Part shown: in pieces, positions 38,872 through 58,206 of the stretch
Layout: every line of letters starts with the position of its first letter
How positions within the stretch are numbered: position 1 is the first letter of the stretch
Assembly: GCF_030684675.1 (NCBI RefSeq)
Contig: NZ_JAUXXZ010000035.1
Location: 1 to 64,000, forward strand
Direction: 5' to 3'
Length of the DNA: 64,000 bases
Origin: Daejeonella sp.
GTDB taxonomy: Bacteria > Bacteroidota > Bacteroidia > Sphingobacteriales > Sphingobacteriaceae
Translations under genes and position numbers: made by a program
Notes under the pieces: generated by a model
Seen by the model: the letters and a program-made list of their open reading frames with translations, nothing else
What the model was told of the DNA's origin: nothing
The model's database searches: none

Positions 38872-40371
38872 TCAACTATAAGTCCTATCATGAGAGCGTA
38901 GTTCATTCCACTCATTTGTAGGGGCGAAATAACTCTTATCAGTAGATTTTAAATGCTGTTTTAAAACCTCCTCATTCAATTCAATACCTAATCCAGGAGA
39001 ATTAAGCGGCAGAATAGCATAACCTTTTTCTATCATTTTTTTACCATCTGTCGTCTTTACCAGGTCTTCCCACCATGGGATATCAACTGAATGATGCTCC
39101 AGTGCAAGGAAATTCTGTGTCGCTGCAGCACAATGTACACTAGCCATAAAAGAGACCGGTGTACCTGCCTGATGCATTGCCATAGCTACTCCATATTCTT
39201 CGGCATAATCCCCTATCCTCTTGGTTTCAAGCAGACCGCCCGATGAGGCAAGATCAGGGTGAATAATATCCACCGCCCGTGCATGGATCAAAGGCTTGAA
39301 ATCTTTCAGCAAATAGATATCTTCACCGGTTGTAGTAGGCGTTTCCAATGCATCTGAAATGGTTTTCCATTGCTCGGTATAAGTCCAGGGTACCATATCT
39401 TCAAACCAGGCTAACCTGTATTTTTCCATTGCCTTGCCCAAACGGATGCTATTATTCAGGTCAAAATGACCATAATGGTCAGTAGAAATTGGAATTTCAT
39501 ACCCAACCATTTTACGTATTGAATCTACAACTTGAGATAAATCCTCCAAACCTTTTTCAGTGATCTGAATCTGTGTAAACGGATGTGCGGTATTACCATA
39601 AGACATCATATTTCGCTGATCCCCCCATTGTGCCAGATCTCCTTTATCATTCTCCCAGAATTTAGAATTCACAACTGTACCTGGTTTCCCTTTTAACTCA
39701 CTGATTGAGATATCCATTTTCAACCAGGTATATCCCTGATCATTGATCCGGTAATTGATCAGTTTTTTTTGTTCTTCAGGACTTGCAGCTTCAGGTGTAT
39801 CCGCATAAAGCCTTACTTTATCGCGATATCTTCCGCCAAGTAACTGCCATGCAGGTACGCCATATGCTTTTCCGCATAGATCCCATAAGGCCATTTCTAC
39901 AGCACAAACGCCTCCGGCCTGACGAGCTGGTCCGCCGAATTGCTTAATCACTTTAAAAATCATTTCTACATTACAAGGATTCCTTCCGAGAATACGGCTC
40001 TTTAACATCAGGGCATACCTGACGTCTGCAGCATCCCTTACCTCACCGAGGCCATAAATGCCCTGGTTCGTATCGATACGTATGATCGCTGTTCCTCCCA
40101 TTACATTTGTGAGGCAATAACGCATATCGGTTATCTTCAGATCCGAAGGGTTAGAAGACCTTTTTACATTTTGCGTTGTATGGGCAATAGTATCTTCAAT
40201 AGTCAGATTCATCAATCCACCTAAGGCAATACCACCCAAGGCTGTTTTTTTAAGAAAACTCCTCCTGTTGGTGCCGGTCTCCGGATTATTGATTTCAGCC
40301 TGCCTTGAAGCAGCATAGAACTTTTCCTCTTCCTTATTTCTGGAAATCAAAGATTGTAAAGTGCTTTTCAT
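38872..40371 (-). CDS. Tat-exported enolase-superfamily dehydratase (F)
   Basis: This 499-residue mandelate racemase/muconate lactonizing enzyme-type protein carries a twin-arginine motif, Arg36-Arg37 in TNRRSFLKKTALGG, so export to the periplasm is predicted. The barrel supplies metal ligands at STDHYGHFD, WFEDMVPW and TTGEDIYLL, a candidate base Lys in WLKMDIS, and His in AMAMHQAGTP. The ATG at 40371 is chosen because a longer frame (to 40488) would overlap the upstream RraA-like gene and lacks a signal. It is the last gene of the locus and is followed by the repeat-rich gap. The substrate is probably a sugar acid but not determined. Confidence 0.85.
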   Translation of the reverse strand: MKSTLQSLISRNKEEEKFYAASRQAEINNPETGTNRRSFLKKTALGGIALGGLMNLTIEDTIAHTTQNVKRSSNPSDLKITDMRYCLTNVMGGTAIIRIDTNQGIYGLGEVRDAADVRYALMLKSRILGRNPCNVEMIFKVIKQFGGPARQAGGVCAVEMALWDLCGKAYGVPAWQLLGGRYRDKVRLYADTPEAASPEEQKKLINYRINDQGYTWLKMDISISELKGKPGTVVNSKFWENDKGDLAQWGDQRNMMSYGNTAHPFTQIQITEKGLEDLSQVVDSIRKMVGYEIPISTDHYGHFDLNNSIRLGKAMEKYRLAWFEDMVPWTYTEQWKTISDALETPTTTGEDIYLLKDFKPLIHARAVDIIHPDLASSGGLLETKRIGDYAEEYGVAMAMHQAGTPVSFMASVHCAAATQNFLALEHHSVDIPWWEDLVKTTDGKKMIEKGYAILPLNSPGLGIELNEEVLKQHLKSTDKSYFAPTNEWNELRSHDRTYS

Positions 40372-40399
40372 ATCGTTTAAATTAGAGATTAATAAAATA

Positions 40400-41329
40400 T
40401 CAGTGTTTTTTACCCAGATAAGTATCGAGTTGTTCAGGAGTGTACATGGTCTTCCTTGGATACTTTGCCAGCCAGGCTCTGAATTCATTTTTTATTGTCT
40501 CAGTCCAGTCCCCATGGATCTCTCCAGAAAGATATTTACCCTGTTTCAGCAATAAACGTTCGAACTCATCACGCAGACCTGTCAGTTCATTTGCCTTGAC
40601 CAGATCTTCTACAAGATGAGCAGGAATAAATACAACCCCATAATCATTAGCAAATATTATATCTCCCGGAAAAACGGTAACCTCACCAACGCGGATTGGT
40701 GCGTTGATCGAAGTTGGGGTCATGTCCCTGATATAAGAAGGATCATGTCCTTTCACCCATGCATTAAATCCTTCAGTATCCCGAAGCTCCTGCATATCCC
40801 TGATAGATCCATTAAAAACTACGCCATTGCCTGTTTTGGCATAAATTGAATTTCCCAGGCTTGAGCCAATAAGGGTACCATCCTTCACTTTACCAAATCC
40901 ATCAGCTACATAAACGTCTCCTTTACTTAAGATATCAATAGGCCAAATATTAAATCCACCACGCTGAGAGCGTCCTTCTTTACGACCCTGTACTCTTACC
41001 AGTGTATCAAGATCTGGTCTGGAAGGCATAAACTGTGCGGTAACAACCCGACCAACCATTGTTTGTCCTGATTTTAGAATAGTCCAGTTCTTTTCAACCT
41101 GATTTCGGTAGCCTTTATTATTCAGATAACCCCATATCTGTTCGAGTGTATTATATTGTAAACGTTCAAGCACGATCTCAGAAACCAAAGGACGGCCATC
41201 CGCCGAACGCTCACCTTTCCATAATGCAGTCATCTGTTGTACATACTCAGAGCTTGAACCAATTCGCTGAGCATAGGATAAAAAACTACTACAAACAAGA
41301 AGAACTAAAAGGATTGTTATTTTTTTCAT
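40400..41329 (-). CDS. Exported RraA-like aldolase-family protein
   Basis: This 309-residue protein has a Sec signal peptide ending near SYAQR. The RraA / 4-hydroxy-4-methyl-2-oxoglutarate aldolase fold occupies about residues 100-270, with LIGSSLGNSIYAKTGNG, NGSIRDMQEL (catalytic Arg-Asp) and FPGDIIFANDYGVVFIP. RraA-fold aldolases of this type cleave or decarboxylate short 2-keto acids with a divalent metal. The usual proteins are about 160-230 residues and cytoplasmic, so an exported, extended form is notable. Placed among sugar-acid dehydratases, retro-aldol cleavage of 2-keto-3-deoxy acids is a reasonable inference. Confidence 0.82.
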   Translation of the reverse strand: MKKITILLVLLVCSSFLSYAQRIGSSSEYVQQMTALWKGERSADGRPLVSEIVLERLQYNTLEQIWGYLNNKGYRNQVEKNWTILKSGQTMVGRVVTAQFMPSRPDLDTLVRVQGRKEGRSQRGGFNIWPIDILSKGDVYVADGFGKVKDGTLIGSSLGNSIYAKTGNGVVFNGSIRDMQELRDTEGFNAWVKGHDPSYIRDMTPTSINAPIRVGEVTVFPGDIIFANDYGVVFIPAHLVEDLVKANELTGLRDEFERLLLKQGKYLSGEIHGDWTETIKNEFRAWLAKYPRKTMYTPEQLDTYLGKKH

Positions 41330-41388
41330 GATTTAGAATTTAATTATTTTTTAAAATTTCAGAATAAAATATTGAGTTGATTAATAAT

Positions 41389-42546
41389 TTATACTCTTTT
41401 TTCTTTTGCCACTGCTTCAGCCAGACCCCGCATGTACCCGATAGCAAAAAGGTTTCCCAGAGTCATATATCCTGGTCTGGCATTCTCTTCACCAGCCATA
41501 GTAGGAACATGATCAGCACGGATTGGACCTTTAAATCCTATATCGTAATATGCCTTCATGGCAGCATACATATCAATCTGGCCTTCATCATGAAAGGTTT
41601 CAGTAAATTTGGTACTGGGTATCACACCACTCAGGTCCTGAACATTTCTGAAATGAACAAAATGAATTTTACCCGCTTTCCCCCATCTTCTAACTAATTT
41701 AGGGATATTGGCACCCATCAGAGAAAAATTACCCTGACAAAGTGTAACTCCATTAAATTCACTGGGCATGATTTTTAACATTCTATCAAAATTTTCTACC
41801 GTATTCATAATTCTTGGAATTCCTTGAATACTATTAACCTGAGGATCATCAGGGTGTAACGCCAGTTTCATTTCAATTTTTTCTGCCTCAGGTACAACAG
41901 CCTTCAGGAAATATTCCAGGTTCTTCCACATACTTTCAGGAGAAACTTCTCCATACTTTGTAAGTGGTCGGTTCTTAATCTCTTCATAATCAAAAGCGGT
42001 AACAAGTGCACCGCCCCGACCAGGACGGTCCATTTGTGTCCGGGCCCAACTAATGACCGGCATCCAATTATAACAGATGACATCAACTCCTGAGCGCTTG
42101 AGGTTTTTCATGAAGGTTATAAAATTTGCTATTTCTTCATCCCTACCTTCAAGGCCAAGCTTAGTCTTTTCTCCCAAACAAGGTGGCCCTTCGACGGTAT
42201 TGTAATTTAGTCCAACCTTTTTCCAGGAATCCCTTACCTCCATTATGGCATTATAATCCCATGGCTTTGCATTTACATTTCGTGTGAGCCTCATATCAAT
42301 TCCAGCGATTGCACCAAACGCTCCCATCTGTTTTGCAAGCTCAATCAGCTGCTTATTAGCTTCCATTCCTGAAAAATAAGCATTACTCATTTCCATGCCT
42401 GCATCTTTTGCAACTGAAATTAATTCTAAACTGACAGGCGCAATTTGATTAAGAGGTTTTGAGATAGTTGAATTTATACCACCCACAGAAAGAGCAGCTG
42501 CAATTGATGCACTTTTTTTAAGGAAATCTCTGCGATTATCTGTCAT
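41389..42546 (-). CDS. Tat-exported mannonate dehydratase, UxuA-like
   Basis: This 385-residue protein is related to UxuA, which dehydrates D-mannonate to 2-keto-3-deoxygluconate using a metal ion. A twin-arginine signal is at residues 5-6 (NRRDFLKKSASIAAALSVGG). The TIM-barrel core contains VICYNWMPVISWARTQ, LHPDDPQ, GVTLCQGNFS, HFVHFRNVQD and the C-terminal IRADHVPTMAGE, with the Cys and His metal ligands of the family present. Ordinary UxuA is cytoplasmic, so the export signal is unusual. It is flanked by the RraA-like and DgoD-like genes in one transcriptional direction. Confidence 0.88.
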   Translation of the reverse strand: MTDNRRDFLKKSASIAAALSVGGINSTISKPLNQIAPVSLELISVAKDAGMEMSNAYFSGMEANKQLIELAKQMGAFGAIAGIDMRLTRNVNAKPWDYNAIMEVRDSWKKVGLNYNTVEGPPCLGEKTKLGLEGRDEEIANFITFMKNLKRSGVDVICYNWMPVISWARTQMDRPGRGGALVTAFDYEEIKNRPLTKYGEVSPESMWKNLEYFLKAVVPEAEKIEMKLALHPDDPQVNSIQGIPRIMNTVENFDRMLKIMPSEFNGVTLCQGNFSLMGANIPKLVRRWGKAGKIHFVHFRNVQDLSGVIPSTKFTETFHDEGQIDMYAAMKAYYDIGFKGPIRADHVPTMAGEENARPGYMTLGNLFAIGYMRGLAEAVAKEKRV

Positions 42547-42653
42547 GACTACATAAGTTTTGAATAGATGTTGGCAATGCTATTAATAATCGAAGGTCCC
42601 AGTTAGATAATTGAACTTTCGATTATGGGGTTCTGATCTTAACTACAATTCTT

Positions 42654-43928
42654 TTACCAGTCTACTACCGATCCGTCAAGTGAATTGTAAGTTTCCGGAT
42701 TTTTCCAATCATGACCTATTTTATCAGCCATTAATGCTTCATCCAATTCAACACCCAAACCTGGTCCTTTAGGAATAAGAACAGTCCCATCCTTTTGTAA
42801 TTTAAACGGGTTTTTTAAATATCCTTCGCCTAATGAAACTTGTTCCTGCACTAAAAAATTGGGTATGCTGGCGGCTAGTTGCAAGCCTGTGGCTAATGAT
42901 ATCGGTCCCATTGGATTATGTGGTGCAATTGGAACATAATACGCTTCGGCCATACCAGCGATAATCCGACCCTCAGTAATACCACCTGCATGACAAAGAT
43001 CCGGCTGAATTATACTTGCAGCTCCTTTTTCAAGTATTTCCCGAAAACCCCATTTGGTAAAAATTCTTTCTCCGGTTGCAATGGGTATATGTGTACCTCT
43101 GGCAATGTCGACCATTACATCAACATTTTGACATTGACAAGGCTCTTCAATGAACATTGGCTGGTAAACTTCAAGTTCTTTAATCAGAATTTTTGCCGTT
43201 TGGGGAGAAATACTGCCATGAAAATCAATTCCTATATCCATATCATCACCACCAGCATCCCGTAAGGAAGCAAAATTATCTACTGCATATTTGATAAATC
43301 TTGGATTTTCGACAATATTAGCATGAGTTTTTTTTGCAACTGATGTTTTAATTACAGTAAAACCAGCGGCCTTTTGCTGTTTGATTTGCTCCGGAGTACC
43401 CGCACGTCCATATACCCTCACGCGATCGCGTGTAGGACCACCCAATAATTCATAGATCGGAACATTTAAAAGCTTTCCTTTAATATCCCATAAAGCCTGA
43501 TCTATTCCACTTAAAGCGCTTGTAAGAATCGGACCTCCACGATAGAAAGCATGTCTGTATATAGCTTGCCAATGATGCACTACATTTCTGGGATCTTTAC
43601 CAATTAAATATGGCTCTATCTCTTTTATAGCCGTTTGAATTGTCAATGCCCGACCCTCCAGTAAGGGTTCGCCCAGACCATAAATTCCGACATCTGTATG
43701 AATTTTTAGAAAAATCCATCGAGGCTTTACCAGAAATGTTTCAAGCCTGGTAATCTTGACCTCTCCATTTCCTTTTATTTGTTCAAGTGTAGAGGGTGAT
43801 ATTTTATTTCCAACATCTTTTGCATAAGAAGATTCTGGTAAAGCCATAATGCCAATCCCTGCAACCCCTAAAACAGACTGTATCGCAGTGCGACGGGAAA
43901 TTTCTAATTTCTTTGTGTTAGATTTCAT
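42654..43928 (-). CDS. Galactonate dehydratase-like enolase-superfamily protein (E)
   Basis: This 424-residue protein resembles D-galactonate dehydratase DgoD. The lid domain has GIYGLGEPLLEGRA. The barrel has metal ligands at GIDFHGSISPQT, FIEEPCQC and IATGERIFT, and a His in PIAPHNPMGPIS. A weak twin-arginine motif (ISRRTAIQSVLGVAG, Arg12-Arg13) precedes a hydrophobic stretch ending PESSYA, so export is probable but less clear than for its neighbours. DgoD dehydrates galactonate to 2-keto-3-deoxygalactonate; other aldonates are possible. It lies 435 bp after the ManD-like gene, and that gap contains a conserved hairpin leader. Confidence 0.85.
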   Translation of the reverse strand: MKSNTKKLEISRRTAIQSVLGVAGIGIMALPESSYAKDVGNKISPSTLEQIKGNGEVKITRLETFLVKPRWIFLKIHTDVGIYGLGEPLLEGRALTIQTAIKEIEPYLIGKDPRNVVHHWQAIYRHAFYRGGPILTSALSGIDQALWDIKGKLLNVPIYELLGGPTRDRVRVYGRAGTPEQIKQQKAAGFTVIKTSVAKKTHANIVENPRFIKYAVDNFASLRDAGGDDMDIGIDFHGSISPQTAKILIKELEVYQPMFIEEPCQCQNVDVMVDIARGTHIPIATGERIFTKWGFREILEKGAASIIQPDLCHAGGITEGRIIAGMAEAYYVPIAPHNPMGPISLATGLQLAASIPNFLVQEQVSLGEGYLKNPFKLQKDGTVLIPKGPGLGVELDEALMADKIGHDWKNPETYNSLDGSVVDW

Positions 43929-44363
43929 CAGATAAAAATTCTAAAGTAGTATTATTATTTTTTTGTGTATTCAGGTGATCTTGAAATTCAATACTTTAAG
44001 TTATGACTAATCTCATCAGCACTAATCGAACCTACTCCACAAAACTATTTAAGGTCAATTTCATAATCAATAAAAATTAAAATAGAAAGTTATTCCGGGT
44101 AAATGAGTAGAGCATAAAATCCCATAAATAAGTTTCATAGAGGATAAAAAAGATTCTTCAATAGTGATTGGATAATTTGGTAAAATAATTTACCGGAAAG
44201 TGGGCAAACACTTTCCGGAATTCTTTACTTAAAAATCTTTCTTTTAATGTTTAATTACCCTTAAATTAAAAGTTTGAGTCATGTTGTTCAAATTAAATAT
44301 GATTAAACCTTCATCATTTTAACATAGAGTTGAATTCTCAAGATTAATTCTTTAAAAAAGAGA
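43929..44363. other. 435-bp gap inside the locus, probable internal promoter region
   Basis: AT-rich DNA separates the ManD-like gene from the DgoD-like gene. Apart from the hairpin block at 44153-44218 no gene or repeat was recognised. Because the same block precedes susC, this gap is a likely second promoter/leader serving the downstream four genes (38.9-43.9 kb). Confidence 0.5.
44153..44218 (-). promoter_or_regulatory. Conserved hairpin leader, copy 2 (upstream of dgoD-like gene)
   Basis: The block contains ATTCTTCAAT, GTGATTGGATAATTTGG and a perfect 10-bp stem CCGGAAAGTG/CACTTTCCGG (44193-44202 with 44209-44218) around the loop GGCAAA. The same elements in the same order and strand occur at 55162-55231 upstream of susC. 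Minus-strand transcription would read it as a 5' leader about 225 bp before the DgoD-like start. Confidence 0.6.
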
Positions 44364-45725
44364 CTATGGTCTTATAATGGTTCCATCTGATTTTCTAACC
44401 TGCCAATTAGATTTTGTACCGATAGGATACTTAGCGGCTTCTTTTTCATTCACCTCCACACCTAAACCAGGTACTTCATTTATATACATATAACCATCTT
44501 TCATTGTTGGCGAACCGGGGAATATAGCCCTTGATTTATCCGAAATAATAGCTGCCTCCTGAATTCCGAAGTTCCAGATGGCAAGATCAATATGAGCATG
44601 TGCCGCGTGACCAACAGGAGAAACATCACCTGGGCCATGCCAAGCGGTTCTAACATTAAACCACTCCCCTAATCTGGCAATTTTCATGGCCGGGGTAATA
44701 CCACCTATTTGAGAAACATGGCATCTGATATAGTCAAACCATTGATTAACCATAGGCATTTTAAATTCATTAACATTATTAAACAGCTCTCCCATGGCAA
44801 TCGGCACAGTGGTACTTTGTCGAAGAAGTTTGAACCATTCCATATTTTCAGGAGAGAAAGGATCTTCAATAAAGAATGGACGGTATTGCTCCAGCTGTTT
44901 AATCATGTTAATAGAGTCCATAGGCTGAGTATTCTCATGGATATCATGTAATAATTCGACCTCGCCTCCACAAACCCTTCTAACGGTTTCAAACATCTTA
45001 GGAACTCCTTTAATATAGGCATACTCATTAATATGACGATCTCCTTCATATCCAAAGCCGGCCACCTTAAAATCAGGTTGTTTAGAATTTGTACCTACAC
45101 CTCCATAACCACCCTGTTGAATCCTGATATATTTATATCCTTGAGCCATGAATGATTGAACACTTTCAGCAACAGCTTCTGGGGTGTTCCCTCCAGCATG
45201 GCCATAGCATGGTATTGCAAATCTTGATTTACCACCTAAAAGCTGATAAACCGGCATATTGGCTCGTTTACCTTTTATATCCCAAAGTGCCTCATCAAGT
45301 CCGCTTAAAGCATTATTTAAAACCGCACTATTCCTCCAGTATGAACTTACATAACAGGAATTCCACATGTCTTCGATATTGTCAACATCCTTACCGGCAC
45401 AGAAGTCATTAAGGTAGTCGTTAATTGCTGATACCACTGCCAGTGCACGTTGTGTAAATGTTGCACAACCATATCCATAAAGGCCAGGTTCAGTTGTCTC
45501 AACTTTAACAACAATTAAGTTTGATCCCTGTGGGGCTGTAACAATGGCTTTGACACTTTTAATTTTAACAGGAGCTAATCCCTTTTGATAATTTGGTGTT
45601 TCATAATTAGCTGCATTTGCTTCAGCTGATCCGAATAAACCCAACAGCCCGGCTGAAGAACCAAGTGCAAGCATCTTTAAAGCATCACGGCGGCTTGAGG
45701 ACGCATTTTCTTCTAAATTTTTCAT
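44364..45725 (-). CDS. Tat-exported ManD/RspA-like dehydratase (D)
   Basis: This 453-residue enolase-superfamily protein is closest to the ManD/RspA group. The twin-arginine motif is Arg12-Arg13 (SSSRRDALKMLALG), with cleavage near AEANAA. Characteristic features are YGHAGGNTPEAV, IRIQQGGYGG, the metal-ligand sites ELLHDIHENT, FFIEDPFSPEN and MGELFNNVNEF, and the late RTAWHGPGDVSPVGHAA. Family members dehydrate D-mannonate or D-gluconate to 2-keto-3-deoxygluconate, some very slowly. It is the fourth enzyme gene after susD, 31 bp downstream of its neighbour. Confidence 0.87.
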   Translation of the reverse strand: MKNLEENASSSRRDALKMLALGSSAGLLGLFGSAEANAANYETPNYQKGLAPVKIKSVKAIVTAPQGSNLIVVKVETTEPGLYGYGCATFTQRALAVVSAINDYLNDFCAGKDVDNIEDMWNSCYVSSYWRNSAVLNNALSGLDEALWDIKGKRANMPVYQLLGGKSRFAIPCYGHAGGNTPEAVAESVQSFMAQGYKYIRIQQGGYGGVGTNSKQPDFKVAGFGYEGDRHINEYAYIKGVPKMFETVRRVCGGEVELLHDIHENTQPMDSINMIKQLEQYRPFFIEDPFSPENMEWFKLLRQSTTVPIAMGELFNNVNEFKMPMVNQWFDYIRCHVSQIGGITPAMKIARLGEWFNVRTAWHGPGDVSPVGHAAHAHIDLAIWNFGIQEAAIISDKSRAIFPGSPTMKDGYMYINEVPGLGVEVNEKEAAKYPIGTKSNWQVRKSDGTIIRP

Positions 45726-45756
45726 GTTTTATCTTGTATTTAAAGTTTATTTATTA

Positions 45757-47136
45757 TTAATCAAAGAAGTTTTTGTCTTCTTCCGCCAGAAATTTCTTTG
45801 CTTCTTTTTCAATAAAATTAACTCCTAATCCCGGTCTATCCCATACATCAATTAAACCGTCCTTTACAATTTGTTTAGGCAGGCCTTCTACTATATCATA
45901 CCAAAATGGAGCTGCTTGGGTATATTCAAAGGCAATAAAATTCTCCGGCATCGTTGCGCCAACCTGAACCTGTGCGGCTAGACCAAGAAGTCCGTTAAAG
46001 GTACCATGGGGAGCTATTTTTATTCCATAAAGGTCGGCATGCTGAGCAACCCACTTCAGCTCTGATATACCTCCCATATCTGCCGGGTCTGGCCCCAGGA
46101 TATCAATAGCATGCCTGTCTATCAGTTCTCTAAAATTTTGTCTTAAATAGATCTGCTCACCGGTAAATATTGGCAGTGATGTACTTTCTGTAAGTTGGCG
46201 GTAGTCGTCTGCCGTCACATAAGGTGTATAATCACCGGATAGCATATCTTCCGCCCAACAAATGTTATAAGGCTCCAATAAATTTGCCATTTTAATGGCG
46301 TCAAACAACATAAAGCCAGGTCCGATATCAAGACCCAGGTCAATATCGTCACCAAGTGCAGTCCTCATTCCTTCAACATGGTCAACGATCATTTTATATC
46401 CCGTAATTTTCATTGGACCGCGATAATATGGGTTGTCTTTCTTGCTCTCTGAAGATTTGCTTAGATTACTATAGCTGAAGTCGGGATTATTTTTCATTGA
46501 GGGTCCGTGAAAACCTAAATTTTCCTTAATGATTTCCCAACCATATCCGGAAGACTTGACCTTTTCTGCCCAGTCACGATAATGCTGAGGTGTTTTACCC
46601 TCAACCGTGAACCGTATTCCTTTGCCATAACTGGCATAACAACGCACCTGGTCGCGAACCTTACCGCCTAACAGCTTATAAATGGGAAGGTTTGCAGCTT
46701 TCCCTGCGATATCCCATAGTGCCGTCTCAATAATGCTGACAGCACTCCCCCAGGGTTTAAAACTACCCATACGTCTGATCTTCATCATTACACGCTCCAC
46801 ATTGGTAGGATCCTCCCCAATCAAATAATCTTTGTAAAAAAGGACAAATGGTTTAAGGTAAGGCTTAGCAGTTTCGGCTTGCCCATAGCCGCTAATACCT
46901 TCATTTGTTGTTATGCGTACCACCGGACTTCCTCCGATTATGGCACACTTAAGGTCTGTAATCTTTAGTGCAGCCTTTGCAGTAGCCATTCCATTTACAT
47001 ACAAAGGAACATCACGAGCAGCAGCATGTGCAGGATTGCTATCAAATAGTCCGAGAAGTCCGGATGCCGTACCTAAACCCAGCATTTTAAGTGTGTTTCT
47101 ACGCTGAATGCCAAAATCGTTTTTTTCTTTTGTCAT
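45757..47136 (-). CDS. Tat-exported enolase-superfamily dehydratase (C)
   Basis: This 459-residue protein is one of three neighbouring paralogues. The twin-arginine signal is IQRRNTLKMLGLGTASGLLG (Arg12-Arg13), cleaved near AHAAA. The barrel contains candidate base Lys in WEIIKENLGFHG, metal ligands at LGLDIGPGF, CWAEDML and FTGEQIYL, the Asp of GPDPADMGG and the His of KIAPHGTFNG. That is the arrangement of the mandelate-racemase subgroup, which includes many acid-sugar dehydratases. The substrate is unassigned. It is more diverged from paralogues A and B than they are from each other. Confidence 0.86.
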   Translation of the reverse strand: MTKEKNDFGIQRRNTLKMLGLGTASGLLGLFDSNPAHAAARDVPLYVNGMATAKAALKITDLKCAIIGGSPVVRITTNEGISGYGQAETAKPYLKPFVLFYKDYLIGEDPTNVERVMMKIRRMGSFKPWGSAVSIIETALWDIAGKAANLPIYKLLGGKVRDQVRCYASYGKGIRFTVEGKTPQHYRDWAEKVKSSGYGWEIIKENLGFHGPSMKNNPDFSYSNLSKSSESKKDNPYYRGPMKITGYKMIVDHVEGMRTALGDDIDLGLDIGPGFMLFDAIKMANLLEPYNICWAEDMLSGDYTPYVTADDYRQLTESTSLPIFTGEQIYLRQNFRELIDRHAIDILGPDPADMGGISELKWVAQHADLYGIKIAPHGTFNGLLGLAAQVQVGATMPENFIAFEYTQAAPFWYDIVEGLPKQIVKDGLIDVWDRPGLGVNFIEKEAKKFLAEEDKNFFD

Positions 47137-47192
47137 AAATTTTGAGTTTAATAAGATTACTTAATTGAATAGTTTCGGATTAATTGAATTTC

Positions 47193-48575: not shown

Positions 48576-48635
48576 AATTTTTGCGCTTACTAAAGATCAA
48601 TTAATTGATTTAATTCAAATTATATCTGGAATTTC

Positions 48636-49985: not shown

Positions 49986-50024
49986 AAGATCCACAGATTG
50001 GTTTATTGATGTGGCGCGTGATAG

Positions 50025-50056
50025 AACAACTTCCGATTTAAAAATCGGAAGTTGTT
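50025..50056 (-). promoter_or_regulatory. 15-bp hairpin between susD and the first dehydratase gene
   Basis: AACAACTTCCGATTT (50025-50039) is perfectly complementary to 50042-50056 with a 2-nt spacer. No T-run follows on the minus strand, so it looks more like an mRNA-stability or attenuation hairpin separating the susCD message from the enzyme genes than a full terminator. Confidence 0.55.
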
Positions 50057-50092
50057 GCTCTATAAAACTGAATTGATTAAAACTTTGACTTA

Positions 50093-51631
50093 TTACTTAT
50101 CCCACCAAACACGAGTATTTAATTTATCTCCACCTTGCTTTGTAATCGCAGCATTGAGATTCGTTTTGTTGATCGCATACTCAGAATCCGGATAAGTTAG
50201 TTTCCGTACAAAGGGTGTAACATCTCTGCCTTGATAAGGATTTGGAGTTAATGCCGGAAATCCGCTTCTACGGAAGTTTGCAAATGTTTCAGGTCCATTT
50301 AGAAGTGTCGCTACCCAGTATTGTTCGTTAATATCTCTTAACTCATTTCCAACACTTAAAGGATTGGCTGTAACAAAAGCCTCAATATCAGAATTAGCTA
50401 TGGCTGATGCAGGTGAGAATTGTGCCATTTCGGCCATATTTGCACGAATTGCATCTGCATAAAGAGCGGCTGCAGTTGGTCCTGTTGTGATCCAGCCCCG
50501 AACCCGGGCTTCGGCTAATAATAATTTAGTTTGAGCATTAGTTAGTAAAAACATTGGAGCATCAATTCTGCCCAATCTAAACCTGTCAAGCTGAGAGTAA
50601 TCATAAAAACTAGCTAATCCATCAAGTCTTGCTTTTGCCACAATTGTTCCATTATCGAAACCGATTGGCATACCTCTTTGAGCTGCCGGAGTAAAATCTG
50701 CCCGGGATGGGGCTTGCTGTGGACCGCTTGCCGCACCGACGTACCGCACCGACATAGATCTCAATCTTGGATCGCCTTTCAAGAATAAAAAATCTACAAA
50801 AGGTTTAGCCAAAAAATAGTTATTAGCTTCCGAGCCATTCAATAAACCGTTAACAGCGTTTTGGTACAAAGAAGTATGACGGATTACCGCACTTCCGCTA
50901 TTTGCCTGGATCACGCCACCTGCAACTGCTTTTGCAACAGACTGCTGGGCAAGCGTTGGGTCAACTTTAGAGAGACGCATGCCCGCTCTAAGCATGAGCG
51001 AATATCCAAAGGCCTTCCATTGAGCGATATCGCCACCAAATAAAACATCACTGTTATTTCTGGGCTTGGCTGGATCTAAGCCAGCGGAGGCTTGTTCCAG
51101 TTCTTTTAAAATATCTTTATAAATAGACTCCTGACTATCATAAACCGGAACTGAAATGTTTTCTGAAAATCCCTTACCTGCTTGAAAATAGGGAATATCA
51201 CCATAAGAATCTGTTAGAACCATGAATGCATAAGCACGCATGATGCGCGCAGAGTGATAGAGATTTGATCGGTCTGGAGCACCTGGCTTAGTAACCGCTG
51301 TTTCAGTGATTACCGAGGCCAAAGACTTAATGACTGTCTGATAGTATCGAACCCAATTTCCCTGGTTACGAACTTTGTTGTCCTGGTTATAATTTCCACC
51401 ACCAAGCACACCACCAAAGGGAGTTATAATTTGTTGGACAATCGCAAGTTCAAAAATCATTGTTTCTAATGGAACAGAAGAGCCAATTATTGCATTGTTC
51501 ATTAAAAAAGCCGGATCGAGTGCGATAGGCAACGTTTTATTTGTATTGATTTCCTCAAAGCCTTTATCACAACTCGGCAATAAGCATATTGTTGATAAAA
51601 ACAGGATGGTATATAAAGTTATCTTTTTCAT
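50093..51631 (-). CDS. SusD/RagB-like nutrient-binding outer-membrane lipoprotein
   Basis: This 512-residue lipoprotein has lipobox LLPSC (Cys about 21) and the SusD-like_2 layout. TPR-type helices form the scaffold (YQTVIKSLASVITE, ARIMRAYAFMVLTDSYGDIPYF), with the C-terminal EQYWVATLLNGPETFANFRR. It would cap the SusC barrel and capture the substrate at the cell surface. It follows susC with a 41-bp gap, the normal arrangement. The closest functional hint is the downstream sugar-acid dehydratases; no bound glycan can be predicted. Confidence 0.93.
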   Translation of the reverse strand: MKKITLYTILFLSTICLLPSCDKGFEEINTNKTLPIALDPAFLMNNAIIGSSVPLETMIFELAIVQQIITPFGGVLGGGNYNQDNKVRNQGNWVRYYQTVIKSLASVITETAVTKPGAPDRSNLYHSARIMRAYAFMVLTDSYGDIPYFQAGKGFSENISVPVYDSQESIYKDILKELEQASAGLDPAKPRNNSDVLFGGDIAQWKAFGYSLMLRAGMRLSKVDPTLAQQSVAKAVAGGVIQANSGSAVIRHTSLYQNAVNGLLNGSEANNYFLAKPFVDFLFLKGDPRLRSMSVRYVGAASGPQQAPSRADFTPAAQRGMPIGFDNGTIVAKARLDGLASFYDYSQLDRFRLGRIDAPMFLLTNAQTKLLLAEARVRGWITTGPTAAALYADAIRANMAEMAQFSPASAIANSDIEAFVTANPLSVGNELRDINEQYWVATLLNGPETFANFRRSGFPALTPNPYQGRDVTPFVRKLTYPDSEYAINKTNLNAAITKQGGDKLNTRVWWDK

Positions 51632-51672
51632 TTTATTGTTTTTAATATTTCAGTAAGAGATACTATTTCAAT

Positions 51673-54600
51673 TTAAAATCTCACATTAAGATTGAACCCG
51701 ATACTACGGCTGGTAGGAAGTCCAGTCTGCTCCAAGCCCTCTTGATTATCCGATACGCTATTTGCCATTTCAGGATCAATATTCGGTACCCATTTCTTTA
51801 GGATTGCCACATTGTTCGCAACCGCACTCAATCGTAAGCCTTTAATAAAAAGCCGTGAAGGCAGCATTTTTGTAAAGTCGTAGCCCATAGTAATTTGTCT
51901 CAATTTCCAGAAACCTGCATTATAAGCAAATTCTTCACGTATACTACTTGTGTTAACCGTTTCATAAAAAGTTTGAAGTGGTGTTGCAACTGCGTTGGGT
52001 GCACCTAGCTGATTTACACCTACACCGGTTACAAGGTTTGTTTCCCGTCCAACCAATGTTGATCTGTGTAAGCCGTGGCGGTATAAGTTGAAGTTAGTTT
52101 GTGATCCTAAATAATGACCTAGTTTGAAATCGATTAAACCGGAAAGTGTTACACCCTTAAAGTTGAAGGAGTTAAAAATACCACCCACATATTTTGGGAT
52201 AGTTGTTCCTATCAATAAAGCTTGAGGAGCTCGTAGCGGTCGGCCATTATTCGTATCAAAAACTTGACGGCCCTGGGCATCACGAAGATAAGCAGTTGCA
52301 TACAAACCGTTTAAATTCTGTCCCACAGTTTGTCTGATTGAATTGGAACCGGCAGCGCCACCTGAAATTATTTCAGTCACACCCTCCCCCAGGTCAAGCA
52401 CTTCGGTAGCATTTTGAGCAAAATTAAAGTTAGTTTCCCATCTAAAATTTTTGGTTAAAAAAGGCGTTCCTGATAACATTAATTCAATACCCGAATTCTT
52501 GCTTTGGCCTACGTTAATTACCGAACTTGTAAAACCGGACGCATCTGAAATTTGAGATGCCAAAATTTGATCATTTGTAATCTTATTATAATAAGTTACT
52601 TCAAATCCAATTCTATTTTCAAAAAATTTTGTTTCAATACCAAACTCAGCTTCTTCAACACGTGAAGGTCTTAAATTTGCATTGGGCACTACACCGCTAG
52701 GAATAGAACCAACCGGTTGAGCTGCACCCGCTGGATTAGGAAATAAATTATTATTAACTCCAAAAAATAAACTATTTGCATAAGGACCAACTGCGTTATC
52801 ACTTCCTACCTGAGAATAACCGGCTCTTATTTTTCCGAACGAAAACCATTTAGGCATGCCTTCAAATGCCTCGCTAAAAATAAAACTTGCGTTAGCCGAA
52901 GGATAAAGAATACTTCTGTTGGCAGGAGCTAAGGTAGAGAACCAATCATTACGTGCGGTGAGGTTCAAATATAGATAGCTTTTGTAGGAAAGTTCTGCTG
53001 CTGCATAAAGTGAGTTAATTTTTACTTCACTTAAATCATAAAAAGGATCCTTTACACGTCCATTTGCCACGGTATACAGATTGCGCACAACAAAATCCTG
53101 AACCGTAACCGAGTTACGATCAAATACACTGTAGCGCTGGTTCCCTCCAACTGTGGCATCAAAAGCAAATCCATTTTTAAAACTTTTAGTAGCTCCAAGG
53201 AGGAAATCAGAATTTAATTCGCGACTACGAAGTACTTCTTGTGTAAATCGTCCGTTAACAAAACCGGCAGGTGCAGCAGGATTTGATGCTCTTCCGGTCG
53301 GATCATTGAAGTCACGATCACGCGAGAAATAATCCTGCCCAATTCGACCTTGTAAATAAAGCCAATCTGTAAAATTGTACTTTGCAGTTATATTTCCGAA
53401 AACACGATCACGTTTTATATTTTCAAAACGATTGTATGTTGACATATAAGGATTGGTTCTATTCCTAAATCGTGTCCAAACAAACTCATCTCCATTGGCA
53501 TCAAAACGCTTTGCACTCAACACATCAAATGGCATAGAGTTAGACAGAGTATAAATCACAACAGGTGTACTGTTATCCTGTCCCCCAACTACTACCGGGT
53601 TTGTATTTTTCTCATTAGAGTAGGCAATGTTACCGGAGACACTTAGTTTCTGGGAAATTTTTTGATTAAATCCGAGATTGATTGTTCTACGATTGAATTT
53701 GCTATTTGGCTGAATACTACTGTTATCCATATTCGCAATAGAGAGATTAAAACCACCATTTGCACCTCCATTCGAAACGGAAACGGTGTTAGTCAATGTG
53801 CTCCCTACCTGATAGAATTTTTTAATACGATCTCTAACGGGCTCATATGGAGCAGTTACGCCATCAAACAAAACTTGTGTCATACCAGGCTGAAATCTTT
53901 CTCCAAAACTCCAAACACCCGATGTTGGATTTGCTGTTGTTGGTCGAACTCCAAACTCTCCCTGACCATATTCATACTGCAGGTCGGTAAAGTCCAGAGG
54001 AGTATCTGATGTGTAATTGGTATTAAAATCAACACCCAAGCCTTTGTTGGAAGTACCGGATTTAGTCGTAATCATTACTACTCCATTTTGAGCGCGAGAA
54101 CCATATAATGCCGCGGCAGCACCTCCTTTAAGAATAGTCATTGATTCAATATCATCTGGATTAATACTACTTAGTCCATCCCCTCCATCGGTAGAAACTA
54201 CAGCACCCTGTCCTCCAAAATCTCCACCCACACCAAAAGTTGTATTATTAATAGGAACTCCATTAACAACGATAAGCGGACTATTTTGAGCTCCAAAAGA
54301 AGATTGGCCCCTGATTCGGATTTTGCTGGATCCGGCAGGACCTGTACCCATCGGTGTAATATTCACACCAGGCATTTTTCCTACAAGGCCACTCATGAAA
54401 TTTACCGTGCGGTTTTCGCTGATTTGTAGCGCATTAACGGTTGCAGTGGCATAACCAAGTCTCTTTGTTTCTTTCTTGATACCTAACGCAGTAACTACTA
54501 CCTCAGTTAAAGAGGTTAATTCTTCAGACAATCTCACATCAATGCTTGTACGATCGCCAACTGATATTTCCTGCGAATTAAAGCCGATAGAACTGAATAC

Positions 54601-55134
54601 TAGGACTGCATTTCCATCAGGAACGGTAATTGAATATTTGCCATCAATGTCTGTTGAAGCACCGATCATTGTACCTTTAATCCTAATACTAACACCAGGA
54701 AGAGATAGCCCTTTACTGTCACTGACTATTCCCTTTATTATGATATCTTTTGGAGGGCTTGATTCAGCATTAGGATTATCCAAACTCTTTACTACAATGG
54801 TATTTTGAAAAATCTTGTAAGTTAAAGATTTGTCTTTAAGGCACTTATTCAATGCCTGCTCTATTGTAGCATTTTCAATATTAACATTTATGGTACCAGC
54901 TTTAGAAATGTCCCTTTTATCATATAGAAAGTGATAATTTGTCTGCTTTTCTATTAAGCTAAGAACATTAGCAATAGAAATATTCTTCTCTCGAAGTGTT
55001 ACCATTTGACTATAAGTGTTAGCACTCACCGTGGAAAGTGTTGCAACTATAATAATCATAGTCAATTTCATAGCCAATAGAATTTTGGACAGTTTAAGTC
55101 CTCCAGCAGGAATGACTTTGTAATTAAATTTCAT
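51673..55134 (-). CDS. SusC/RagA-type TonB-dependent transporter with STN domain
   Basis: This 1,153-residue outer-membrane transporter has a signal region with an N-terminal extension (residues 1-43). An STN domain follows (about 45-120), of the kind that signals to FecR. Then come a carboxypeptidase-regulatory-like β-domain (about 131-215), a plug with TEVVVTALGIKKETKRLGYA and GSSKIRIRGQSSFG, and a 22-strand barrel ending in the aromatic residue of NLNVRF. The STN domain and the upstream sigma/FecR pair indicate ligand-induced transcription. Large oligomers or acidic sugars are plausible cargo. Confidence 0.95.
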   Translation of the reverse strand: MKFNYKVIPAGGLKLSKILLAMKLTMIIIVATLSTVSANTYSQMVTLREKNISIANVLSLIEKQTNYHFLYDKRDISKAGTINVNIENATIEQALNKCLKDKSLTYKIFQNTIVVKSLDNPNAESSPPKDIIIKGIVSDSKGLSLPGVSIRIKGTMIGASTDIDGKYSITVPDGNAVLVFSSIGFNSQEISVGDRTSIDVRLSEELTSLTEVVVTALGIKKETKRLGYATATVNALQISENRTVNFMSGLVGKMPGVNITPMGTGPAGSSKIRIRGQSSFGAQNSPLIVVNGVPINNTTFGVGGDFGGQGAVVSTDGGDGLSSINPDDIESMTILKGGAAAALYGSRAQNGVVMITTKSGTSNKGLGVDFNTNYTSDTPLDFTDLQYEYGQGEFGVRPTTANPTSGVWSFGERFQPGMTQVLFDGVTAPYEPVRDRIKKFYQVGSTLTNTVSVSNGGANGGFNLSIANMDNSSIQPNSKFNRRTINLGFNQKISQKLSVSGNIAYSNEKNTNPVVVGGQDNSTPVVIYTLSNSMPFDVLSAKRFDANGDEFVWTRFRNRTNPYMSTYNRFENIKRDRVFGNITAKYNFTDWLYLQGRIGQDYFSRDRDFNDPTGRASNPAAPAGFVNGRFTQEVLRSRELNSDFLLGATKSFKNGFAFDATVGGNQRYSVFDRNSVTVQDFVVRNLYTVANGRVKDPFYDLSEVKINSLYAAAELSYKSYLYLNLTARNDWFSTLAPANRSILYPSANASFIFSEAFEGMPKWFSFGKIRAGYSQVGSDNAVGPYANSLFFGVNNNLFPNPAGAAQPVGSIPSGVVPNANLRPSRVEEAEFGIETKFFENRIGFEVTYYNKITNDQILASQISDASGFTSSVINVGQSKNSGIELMLSGTPFLTKNFRWETNFNFAQNATEVLDLGEGVTEIISGGAAGSNSIRQTVGQNLNGLYATAYLRDAQGRQVFDTNNGRPLRAPQALLIGTTIPKYVGGIFNSFNFKGVTLSGLIDFKLGHYLGSQTNFNLYRHGLHRSTLVGRETNLVTGVGVNQLGAPNAVATPLQTFYETVNTSSIREEFAYNAGFWKLRQITMGYDFTKMLPSRLFIKGLRLSAVANNVAILKKWVPNIDPEMANSVSDNQEGLEQTGLPTSRSIGFNLNVRF

Positions 55135-55161
55135 AACTTTGTTTGGTTTTGGTTAAACATA

Positions 55162-55231
55162 ATTCTTCAATTGGTGATTGGATAATTTGGGAACCAACTA
55201 TTTACCGGGTAAGTGGGCAAACACTTCCCGG
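55162..55231 (-). promoter_or_regulatory. Conserved hairpin leader, copy 1 (upstream of susC)
   Basis: ATTCTTCAAT, GTGATTGGATAATTTGG and a stem CCGGGTAAGTG/CACTTCCCGG (one bulged T, loop GGCAAA, 55205-55231) lie 28-97 bp before the susC start. The same block is at 44153-44218. The arms differ between copies (AAAGTG versus AAGTG with GGG), but pairing is kept, which suggests selection for RNA structure. Confidence 0.6.
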
Positions 55232-55377
55232 TTTTTTTTTCTTTACAAATTGTCAACCTAAAATTTAAATTTTATTAAATAGGCTTTTAATTTCGAGTTC
55301 CTTTTTCCTAATTTTTCTGTATTTTTTATCTCATAATTATAATTTTAGTGAATTATCAATTTTTCATTTCTGGATTC

Positions 55378-56595
55378 TTATTTGTTCATAATAACAATAT
55401 TTTTCCCTGTAATTTTAAATTTTACTCCGGCATAATTGAGTAAGTTCATGAATTCTAAAGCATTTACATTCCGCGAAACTTTTCCTGTAAGATATTTTTT
55501 TGGAACTTTTCCTTCAAAAGTTACATTTAAATCATACCATGAAGCTACCTGACTCATCACTTCCTCTATACTTGCATCTTTGAATATAAATAATCCATTT
55601 TTCCATGCAATTTGTTCTTCAATATCAACATTATTCAAAATCGTCAAATTTCCTCCTGTTAGTCGTACCTGCTGTCCCGGCTTTAACAAAAGAGAGGAGT
55701 TACCCTCATTGATCTTAACTGAGCCCTCAACCAGTGTTGTTTTCATTATCTTTTCTTTGGAATAGGCTTTAACATTGAAATGCGTTCCCAATACCTCGAT
55801 CTCCGTTCTTCCGGACCTCACCATGAACGGCATAGCAGATTTTTTTACAATTTCAAAATATGCCTCCCCATCCAGCTCGACCTCGCGTATGTTACGCTTG
55901 AACACTCCGGGAAACTTTATTGAAGAAGCTGCATTTAACCACACTTTACTTCCGTCGGGCAGAGTTATCCGGTAACCACCGCCACGCGGCGTGCTGACCA
56001 CATTAAAATCTCCGTTACGGGCATTTTTATAATTTCTATCAAATGCATGATAAACTAATTGCCCGTTCTCAGTTTTAATTATTTCGAAACTCTCATTTTT
56101 CGCAATAATTCCGTTATTAATGCTATCCAGAATAATTCTTTGACCATTTTCAAATGTCAACACAGCTCTATTCCCTCCTGGCGAAAGATCCGTATTTACC
56201 TTAGCTGAAACAATTTGAACAGATGCGGGAGTAATCTTTTCACTCCAGAAATCAAATCCGATAATATTGATGATTATAAGTGCAGCTGCAGCAGAAATAC
56301 TTATGAATATTAATGGCTTTCTCCTTGATATTACAGCGGGGACTTCTTCATGAAACTTATTTTTATCTCTCCCGGAAGCTAGGATCTTGTCAAGCATTTC
56401 TTGACTCTTTTCAAAACTAAAAAAGGGAGCTTCCATATGTTGAAAATTCTCCCATTCATCCCTCATCAGCTTGGTTAATTCCTGGTCAGAGCTAGATTTT
56501 AAAATGTCGAATAATTCTTTAATCTCCTTCTGACTGGCAGTTCTATCATAATATTTACTGAAAAGATAAGTTGTCCTGGAGTTTGAAAAATTCAT
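55378..56595 (-). CDS. FecR-family anti-sigma factor
   Basis: This 405-residue inner-membrane protein has a cytoplasmic sigma-binding N-terminus (SKYYDRTASQKEIKELFDIL), one membrane helix (IFISISAAAALIIINIIGF, near 97-115), a periplasmic FecR domain (TPRGGGYRITLPDGSKVWLN, then LDGEAYFEI and VLGTHFNVKAY), and a C-terminal DUF4974 domain. It would relay the state of the SusC STN domain to the sigma factor. The ATG at 56595 is chosen rather than a TTG at 56616. It lies directly between the sigma and susC genes. Confidence 0.93.
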   Translation of the reverse strand: MNFSNSRTTYLFSKYYDRTASQKEIKELFDILKSSSDQELTKLMRDEWENFQHMEAPFFSFEKSQEMLDKILASGRDKNKFHEEVPAVISRRKPLIFISISAAAALIIINIIGFDFWSEKITPASVQIVSAKVNTDLSPGGNRAVLTFENGQRIILDSINNGIIAKNESFEIIKTENGQLVYHAFDRNYKNARNGDFNVVSTPRGGGYRITLPDGSKVWLNAASSIKFPGVFKRNIREVELDGEAYFEIVKKSAMPFMVRSGRTEIEVLGTHFNVKAYSKEKIMKTTLVEGSVKINEGNSSLLLKPGQQVRLTGGNLTILNNVDIEEQIAWKNGLFIFKDASIEEVMSQVASWYDLNVTFEGKVPKKYLTGKVSRNVNALEFMNLLNYAGVKFKITGKNIVIMNK

Positions 56596-56684
56596 CTTGT
56601 TCAAATTAATTAACAAAAAAGAATGAACTGTTTAATTCTCTTTGTATACAAGACACCAAAGAATCATAAAAGGGGGGTATTGGC

Positions 56685-57257
56685 TTAAATAAAAATAATG
56701 GAGAGTATTAATAAAATATGGAAATTTGTCAGAACATAATTAGTTATGGAAAAAGTAGCTATCTGTAAATATTTTTTTACTGATTCACGGGAAATGTTCA
56801 TCCTGTTCGCCACTTCGGCATACCTTAGTCGCTCATGTCTGCTTAAAAGGTATACCTTTTGTTGTTGAGGAGGTAGACGATCGATTGCTTCGTCAAGGAT
56901 AGTATAGTAATCGTTGGGATCAGAGCTTGAACCAATATGTGAGCTCGTATAGCTTTCTTCAAAGTCGTTGAAATGTTGACGTTCAATACTCAGCTTTCTC
57001 AAACAATTTAAAGTGTGATTTTTGGAGATTACAAATAAATATGCTTTAAAATTTTTTACCCCGGCGAGAACTTCCCTGTTCATCCATATTTTAAGGAATA
57101 CATCCATTACAATCTCTTCAGCAAGATCAACAGAGTTGGTGATCCGGAATATATGCTTTCCAAGTTGCTGATGATATTTATAATAAAGTCGATTATAGGC
57201 TATTTCGTCGCCTCCAGCGACTTTTATCAACTCATTACTTTCAGATAAATCTGACAT
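56685..57257 (-). CDS. ECF sigma-70 factor, FecI-like
   Basis: This 190-residue sigma factor contains region 2 (IAYNRLYYKYHQQLGKHIFR to MDVFLKIWMNRE, about 18-80) and region 4 (AIDRLPPQQQKVYLLSRHE, helix-turn-helix RYAEVANRMNISRESVKKYL, about 118-168). It ends with a hydrophobic tail. It lies 89 bp from the FecR gene in the standard Bacteroidota sigma/anti-sigma/SusCD order and should switch on the locus when the SusC ligand is present. Confidence 0.93.
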   Translation of the reverse strand: MSDLSESNELIKVAGGDEIAYNRLYYKYHQQLGKHIFRITNSVDLAEEIVMDVFLKIWMNREVLAGVKNFKAYLFVISKNHTLNCLRKLSIERQHFNDFEESYTSSHIGSSSDPNDYYTILDEAIDRLPPQQQKVYLLSRHERLRYAEVANRMNISRESVKKYLQIATFSITNYVLTNFHILLILSIIFI

Positions 57258-58133: not shown

Positions 58134-58149
58134 CAATTTCTACCTATGA

Positions 58150-58191
58150 AAAAAAATGCCCCGGATTAAATTTAATCCGGGGCATTTTTTT
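58150..58191. terminator. Bidirectional terminator
   Basis: This is a perfect palindrome centred between 58170 and 58171. The stem core is TGCCCCGGATTAAA with its complement, flanked by A- and T-runs. It serves the glycine-zipper gene and possibly mutS from the other side. Confidence 0.93.
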
Positions 58192-58206
58192 GTCTTGATC
58201 TCTGGC

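Follow-up and report, generated by a model that had tools for sequence, protein, structure and literature searches.

Textbooks place the dehydration of sugar acids in the cytoplasm. In the non-phosphorylative Entner-Doudoroff and De Ley-Doudoroff routes of aldonate catabolism, dehydratases of the DgoD, ManD and UxuA families feed the cleavage of 2-keto-3-deoxy acids. Sugar chemistry outside the inner membrane is known from the periplasmic 3-keto-glycoside and direct glucose oxidation pathways, which are oxidative. Here we describe a locus of Daejeonella sp. (contig NZ_JAUXXZ010000035.1, assembly GCF_030684675.1; the 64,000 nucleotides analyzed are called the window) that may carry out sugar-acid dehydration and cleavage outside the cytoplasm. 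Twelve genes on the minus strand (38872-57257) encode an extracytoplasmic function (ECF) sigma factor, a FecR-type protein, a SusC/SusD pair (SusCD), six enolase-superfamily proteins (E1 to E6), a UxuA-type mannonate dehydratase and an RraA-like protein. Dehydratase families and a cleavage step are shared with the Entner-Doudoroff-type routes, but this locus has export signals, seven dehydratases and RraA as its candidate aldolase, not DHDPS/NAL or 2-keto-3-deoxy-6-phosphogluconate (KDPG) aldolase. The 3-keto-glycoside and glucose oxidation pathways resemble it in being extracytoplasmic; they oxidize, whereas dehydration and cleavage are proposed here.

The ECF/FecR/SusC/SusD head is like that of SusCD polysaccharide utilization loci. 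Such loci are recognized by a SusC/SusD pair together with carbohydrate-active enzymes. The pair is present in the operon, but Pfam detected no glycoside hydrolase or polysaccharide lyase at 38872-57257, and this is therefore not an ordinary polysaccharide locus. A SusCD-linked enolase-superfamily enzyme that acts on a sugar acid, leading to 2-keto-3-deoxy-galactonate, is likewise found in the carrageenan utilization locus of Zobellia (DauB, PMC5698469). According to the available part of that report, the Zobellia sugar acid is made after uptake by an NAD(P)-dependent dehydrogenase and the product is processed by a kinase and an aldolase; export signals are not mentioned in that part of the text (PMC5698469).

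Predicted export signals of the enzyme set

A preliminary description of this DNA, made from the sequence, ascribed export signals to all eight enzymes. Two adjacent arginines followed by a hydrophobic stretch are indeed present near the N-terminus of all seven dehydratases. The curated twin-arginine translocation (Tat) model TIGR01409, with a cut-off of 16.7 bits, is passed by only two of the seven, UxuA (20.8 bits) and E1 (19.4 bits). Because E2 to E6 are below this model or missed by it, their assignment rests on the visible arginine pair and hydrophobic stretch. The start of E1 had to be corrected. Its likeliest start is the ATG at 40371 (499 amino acids, arginine pair at residue 36) rather than 40488, because the longer open reading frame (ORF) overlaps the RraA gene and the 499-residue form is found in genus-mates.

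The N-termini were also examined with a Tat rule of our own, which calls for an arginine pair in the first 50 amino acids and, soon after, an uncharged run of at least 13 residues with a hydropathy of at least 0.9. E1 (corrected start), UxuA, E2, E3, E4 and E5 pass. E6, with the motif SRRDFLFK, is borderline, as its hydropathy of 0.72 fails 0.9 and passes only 0.7. Per 2000 shuffled N-termini, between 3 and 15 pass. Across the window plus 48 Bacteroidota loci, 76/82 ORFs that best match one of the seven dehydratases pass, although these are not independent since the loci are related. Only 18/323 unmatched ORFs in the same 49 stretches pass, several of them resembling genuine Tat proteins.

RraA has a short N-terminus that is Sec-like as judged by eye (MKKITILLVLLVCSSFLSYAQ), in agreement with the preliminary description, and 0/41 RraA ORFs pass the Tat rule. 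That description had also held that export would be refuted by a genome lacking tatABC. This is not the case, as the genome encodes TatC once and TatA/B/E-type proteins three times. The motif, its conservation in relatives and the contrast with signal-less homologues (see below) make export of the enzyme set very likely.

Enzyme families and catalytic residues

E2 exceeds the NCBIfam equivalog cut-off for galactonate dehydratase (Table 1). Its DFH, EEP, GER and PHNP residues, presumably metal ligands and catalytic histidines, align with 3RR1. The nearest solved relatives of E3 are 3T6C, which has D-gluconate bound (458 bits), and 3TW9, named gluconate dehydratase. E3 is below the NCBIfam ManD cut-off (386.5 versus 550 bits) and below that of PRK15072 (378.1 versus 430), suggesting a subgroup related to ManD that is not filed as ManD. 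UxuA scores 251 bits against PRK03906 (cut-off 191) and 172 bits against TIGR00695 (cut-off 199.55).

E1 and E4 to E6 have both MR/MLE Pfam domains above cut-off and retain the D/E/E, K and D-H positions; K218, D298, E324, E350, D373 and H400 of E1 are invariant in 26 sequences. The metal-ligand and acid/base positions of E1 to E6 align with those of solved relatives, and those of UxuA appear to be kept. In E1 and E4 to E6 we take the D/E/E positions to be metal ligands, and the lysine and the D-H dyad to be acid/base residues. The closest solved structure to the E1 model (predicted local distance difference test, pLDDT, 80.5) is 2QQ6; gluconate and mannonate dehydratases rank lower. E4, E5 and E6 are paralogues with 60-78% identity; identities among E1, E2 and E3, and between these and E4-E6, are 24-32%.

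The RraA model (pLDDT 89.5) is nearest in fold to RraAS2 (5X15, E 3e-15) and to 3NOJ (E 2e-14), a 4-hydroxy-4-methyl-2-oxoglutarate/4-carboxy-4-hydroxy-2-oxoadipate (HMG/CHA) aldolase. We take the motif of HMG/CHA-type RraA aldolases to be D-x20-R-D. The first motif position is Asp in 21, Ser in 15 and other or unclear in 4 of 40 RraA relatives. Fold and active-site R-D are shared with 3NOJ and with FlDet, which the accessible portion of PMC8563752 describes as another Bacteroidota enzyme acting on a 2-keto-3-deoxy acid. RraA of the window differs from both in its predicted secretion, in its length of about 300 amino acids, and in having Ser at the first Asp of D-x20-R-D. As far as the consulted part of PMC5065237 goes, one or the other of two motifs is present in most RraA homologues, which are probably pyruvate aldolases of class II.

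E1 and RraA form a conserved pair

In a sample of 296 Bacteroidota genomes, 12 genomes, that of the window included, encode E1 at E ≤1e-80. RraA lies within 300 bp of E1 in 12/12, and on the same strand in 10/12. Chance paralogy was considered as an explanation of the enzyme set and rejected on the basis of this adjacency. Genus-mates L105 and L106 have E1-RraA alone at the same chromosomal site, beside mutS and an NlpC/P60 gene, and genus-mate L103 has the pair with E2. SusCD and the extra dehydratases of the window look like an insertion or growth beside the pair. Close relatives L017 and L019 have one extra E1-like gene that is not in the window. In L020, three E3-like and three E4-6-like proteins accompany E1, nearly all with Tat-like starts.

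These results change the emphasis of the original idea, that acids imported by SusCD are dehydrated in the periplasm. Export and sugar-acid chemistry are supported by the motif, its conservation, the enzyme families and the gene neighborhoods. Less weight falls on SusCD, because the conserved core is the E1-RraA pair, which is also found without SusCD in the fetched stretch.

Transporters and partner enzymes in related loci

Genes near E1-RraA in other genera were examined by locus. SBF/BASS transporters are found in L110, L137-L141, L145 and L146, and DgoT-like major facilitator superfamily (MFS) proteins in L111-L113, L143 and L144. Pyrroloquinoline quinone (PQQ) dehydrogenases of the glucose/quinate/shikimate type are present in L110, L137, L138, L143 and L144, and at the edge of L113. 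A gluconolactonase-like SGL protein is encoded in L137 and L138, and AGE-type epimerases in L132, L135, L138, L140 and L142; DUF4440 proteins are also among the partners. L137 has relatives of 2-keto-3-deoxygluconate (KDG) kinase and KDPG aldolase beside E1-RraA. SBF, MFS and PQQ are used here as family-level names, since the proteins score less than the NCBIfam cut-offs. In the four genomes of L137-L140, the SBF transporter lies between two different E1 copies, and the order is the same throughout.

The association of SBF transporters with secreted RraA was quantified in two sets of genomes, with E-values and expected numbers that assume even placement. In the first set, 14 genomes that include some already looked at, 14/49 RraA copies have an SBF within 5 kb (0.28 expected). 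The second set consisted of the other 17 RraA-bearing genomes, which were not chosen on SBF, though other stretches of some had been fetched before. Here the count was 20/58 (0.57 expected), omitting SBF fragment G134:C60:1758 and RraA fragment G114:C229, and 13/17 genomes had at least one SBF-RraA pair. Where RraA is linked to SBF in the window's genus, the copy is a paralogue and not the RraA of the operon.

The MFS gene at 61043 was considered as the missing transporter of the operon and rejected. It is nearest to drug-efflux families and lies beyond mutS, and genus-mates that lack the full operon also have it next to mutS.

Two other loci of the same genome have related content. L101 (contig C77) encodes a SusCD pair 60%/52% identical to that of the window, beside a GntP permease, an HpcH-type aldolase and a GarR-like reductase. 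A Tat-type UxuA, a signal-less glucarate-dehydratase-like protein and a PQQ-dehydrogenase relative were also observed there. L102 (contig C40) has, in a row, SusCD, a Tat-type DgaE-like protein, a sulfatase, a Tat-type enolase, DgoK, KDPG aldolase and a DgoT-like MFS protein.

DgaE-type enzymes convert amino sugar acids to 2-keto-3-deoxy acids, and RidA clears their enamine products. RraA and SBF are also found with an exported DgaE-like pyridoxal phosphate enzyme in L097, L098 and L147-L149. An exported (Tat-type) RidA is present in L097, L147-L149 and L151, and deacetylase-like amidohydrolases in L098 and L147-L149. These loci possibly encode a periplasmic amino-sugar-acid route. Two unrelated types of exported enzyme, each of which would yield 2-keto-3-deoxy acids, thus share RraA and SBF, and this is the best argument for the role of RraA proposed below.

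Cytoplasmic relatives and origin of the signal

In Alphaproteobacteria, homologues of E1, E2, E4-6 and RraA occur together without convincing export signals. In 19 Pseudomonadota loci, many of them cut by contig ends, RraA was found in 10, an E1 homologue (42-46% identity) in 10, the solute-binding protein of an ATP-binding cassette (ABC) importer in 12, and RraA with the binding protein in 9. Several other neighborhoods are likewise cut by locus ends. L048-L055 and L059 (Kaistia, Mesorhizobium, Devosia and Rhizobium) have signal-less E1, E4-6 and E2-like enzymes, most with RraA and an ABC importer; UxuA relatives occur in L048, L049 and L055. These appear to be cytoplasmic sugar-acid loci. 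The loci of Devosia, Kaistia, Mesorhizobium, Rhizobium lusitanum and Pseudoruegeria thus resemble the Daejeonella locus in bringing the four homologues together. They differ in having no export signals and in having an importer, SBP_bac_1 and BPD_transp_1 by Pfam, where Daejeonella has SusCD. So a similar enzyme kit would be used in two cell compartments in two bacterial groups. RraA and a full importer were not found within the stretches examined of the Chloroflexota loci.

E4-E6 have relatives in Bacteroidota, Chloroflexota, Thermomicrobiota and Pseudomonadota. A Tat-like region is present in 15/15 Bacteroidota sequences with a complete start and in 0/29 of the non-Bacteroidota homologues recovered. 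The 29 are subject to the ORF caller, which missed or mis-set some GC-rich ORFs, and a few have over-extended, cut or shifted 5' ends. Most of them start at the residue where the Bacteroidota domain begins after the Tat part. In a phylogenetic tree, which omits L018_1, L048_9686 and L056_9973, a branch with 100/100 support separates the 15 Bacteroidota sequences from the rest; they sit within Chloroflexota lineages, and weak support places Caldilineaceae next to them. For the E4-E6 family this suggests a single transfer and a single acquisition of the signal. A single Tat gain covering E1 as well was rejected, since two changes are required on the E1 tree, whose branches are long.

Proposed pathway and alternatives

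We propose that the locus encodes an extracytoplasmic sugar-acid pathway that was relocated from a cytoplasmic version still present in Alphaproteobacteria, and we assign this a probability of about 0.55. A substrate, or its arrival at the STN-bearing SusC, would induce the operon through FecR and the ECF factor, as the gene architecture suggests. Aldonic-type sugar acids would enter the periplasm via SusCD. There the seven enzymes, predicted to be exported by Tat and to need only a divalent metal, would dehydrate aldonates of the gluconate, mannonate and galactonate types to 2-keto-3-deoxy acids, a step suggested by family chemistry and the kept catalytic residues. Sec-exported RraA would then cleave the 2-keto-3-deoxy acid to pyruvate and an aldehyde, judging from its fold, family and neighborhoods. 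The product may cross the inner membrane by an SBF/BASS or DgoT-like transporter encoded elsewhere, these being the types beside RraA or E1 in related loci. None of the known reactions of these families requires NAD(P) or ATP, in keeping with a periplasmic site. Location, substrates, RraA chemistry, the route to pyruvate and the importer are thus what we infer from these genes.

Several observations weigh against this pathway. Under TIGR01409, E3 (16.4 bits) and E4 (12.0 bits) are sub-threshold and E2, E5 and E6 have no match up to E=10. The operon has no inner-membrane transporter gene; SBF stands beside E1-linked RraA in other genera and not in the fetched loci of the window's genus, and the SBF and PQQ proteins fall short of their cut-offs. 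In the 21 kb of L020, E1 and SusCD are present and RraA is absent. The E1 tree shows no single relocation and does not give its direction. RraA of the window, with Ser in place of Asp, keeps R-D and departs from the aldolase motif. A cytoplasmic RraA-family protein of Flavobacterium, FlDet, dehydrates and decarboxylates a keto-deoxy aldarate and is not an aldolase, according to the part of the report consulted (PMC8563752).

The last two points also favor a different fate of the product, in which dehydration is periplasmic and whole 2-keto-3-deoxy acids are imported for cytoplasmic KDG kinase and KDPG aldolase. RraA would be otherwise employed, for example in decarboxylation, as the dehydratase/decarboxylase FlDet suggests, or in cleavage of one side product. 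L102 joins a Tat enolase to DgoK, KDPG aldolase and a DgoT-like MFS protein, and L137 joins E1, SBF and RraA to a KDG-kinase relative and KDPG aldolase. However, RraA is the constant partner of E1 (12/12 genomes) whereas the kinase and aldolase are found in few fetched loci, and RraA, being itself secreted, would be the first to meet the product. We consider whole-acid import the less likely course, at about one chance in four. The low TIGR01409 scores (5/7 below or missed) could mean instead that the N-terminal arginine regions are not working signals and that the set stays in the cytoplasm, where an unknown permease would supply it. This is highly improbable, given that the feature is present in 76/82 relatives versus 18/323 unmatched ORFs, that the arginine region is an added piece absent from the 29 homologues, that a Sec-type RraA travels with the set, and that the operon has no permease.

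It is also conceivable that the exported members of the enolase superfamily work as epimerases, racemases or cycloisomerases and not as aldonate dehydratases, or that their targets are sugar-acid groups within larger molecules; the locus would then make unusual sugar acids ready to be taken up. E1 and E4-E6 stay below every NCBIfam equivalog cut-off and the nearest solved relative, 2QQ6, is uncharacterized; the Zobellia locus makes use of a 3,6-anhydro-galactonate cycloisomerase from this superfamily, by the accessible part of PMC5698469. Nevertheless, E2 is above the galactonate dehydratase cut-off, UxuA is above that of PRK03906, E3 is nearest to gluconate dehydratase structures, and the pairing with RraA suits a keto-acid product. 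This explanation seems improbable to us.

A larger version of the proposed pathway would be a complete, cofactor-sparing route from sugar to pyruvate outside the inner membrane of Bacteroidota, with the enzyme set relocated from the cytoplasm. The transporter, PQQ-dehydrogenase and cytoplasmic-twin evidence makes this extension from dehydration to pyruvate possible, and we advance it tentatively. PQQ dehydrogenase and gluconolactonase would make aldonates, Tat-exported dehydratases would convert many sugar acids to 2-keto-3-deoxy acids, and parallel loci would use an exported DgaE-like ammonia lyase and exported RidA. Secreted RraA would cleave the product and a BASS-type sodium symporter would import pyruvate.

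Gene order and other features of the locus

The twelve genes of the preliminary description were found on one strand at the positions it gave, as confirmed by coordinates and Pfam domains (Table 1). From the SusD side the order is E6, E5, E4, E3, E2, UxuA and RraA, and E1 comes last. SusC contains an STN domain (PF07660, residues 67-116 by Pfam). An STN domain in SusC marks the FecR/ECF signalling type.

Table 1. Genes and stem-loops of the Daejeonella sp. locus (window coordinates).
Feature	Position	Strand	Evidence
ECF-type sigma factor	56685..57257	-	Pfam Sigma70_r2, Sigma70_r4_2, Sigma70_ECF
FecR-type anti-sigma factor	55378..56616	-	Pfam FecR and FecR_C
SusC TonB-dependent transporter with STN signalling domain	51673..55134	-	TIGR04056, 609 bits (cut-off 368)
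SusD-like lipoprotein	50093..51631	-	SusD-like_2 PF12771, 240 bits
E6, enolase-superfamily, Tat-like N-terminus (SRRDFLFK)	48636..49994	-	Pfam MR_MLE_N/C; 78% identity to E5
E5, enolase-superfamily, Tat-like N-terminus	47193..48575	-	Pfam MR_MLE_N/C; in Tat-bearing clade
E4, enolase-superfamily, Tat-like N-terminus	45757..47136	-	Pfam MR_MLE_N/C; in Tat-bearing clade
E3, ManD-subgroup protein, Tat-like N-terminus	44364..45725	-	nearest solved relatives 3T6C, 3TW9
E2, DgoD-like galactonate dehydratase family, Tat-like N-terminus	42654..43928	-	NF010624, 447.4 bits (cut-off 311)
UxuA-type mannonate dehydratase with Tat signal	41389..42546	-	PF03786, 287 bits
RraA-like protein, Sec-type N-terminus	40400..41329	-	PF03737, 72.8 bits
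E1, enolase-superfamily, Tat signal with long n-region; conserved RraA partner	38872..40371	-	TIGR01409, 19.4 bits
10-bp stem-loop in E3-E2 gap	44180..44220 (44192-44212)	-	
Similar stem-loop in SusC leader	55190..55235 (55205-55225)	-	

The two stem-loops are each followed by about 35 bases common to both sites, and a genome-wide search allowing up to 3 mismatches found only these two copies. Stem-loop and shared stretch may indicate that a second, co-regulated transcript begins before E2. L017, L018 and L019 retain the E3-E2 gap stem in approximate form; L019 shows one two-sided change, and L017 and L018 have mismatches. The idea that the leader stem-loop is an RNA conserved in front of SusC was rejected, as the relative L019 has no stem there. 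An Rfam scan of 38000-58500 gave nothing near gathering score. Weak overlapping Rfam matches below gathering scores were observed at 58149-58205, at a hairpin between two genes that is probably a terminator.

Significance

A full-text search of the open-licence PubMed Central literature found no earlier description of such a periplasmic sugar-acid pathway. If the proposed pathway is true, central-carbon chemistry would be possible before uptake, and one small-acid transporter would replace many sugar-acid permeases. Many exported Bacteroidota proteins of the enolase superfamily and the RraA family that are now unassigned would also gain a testable role.

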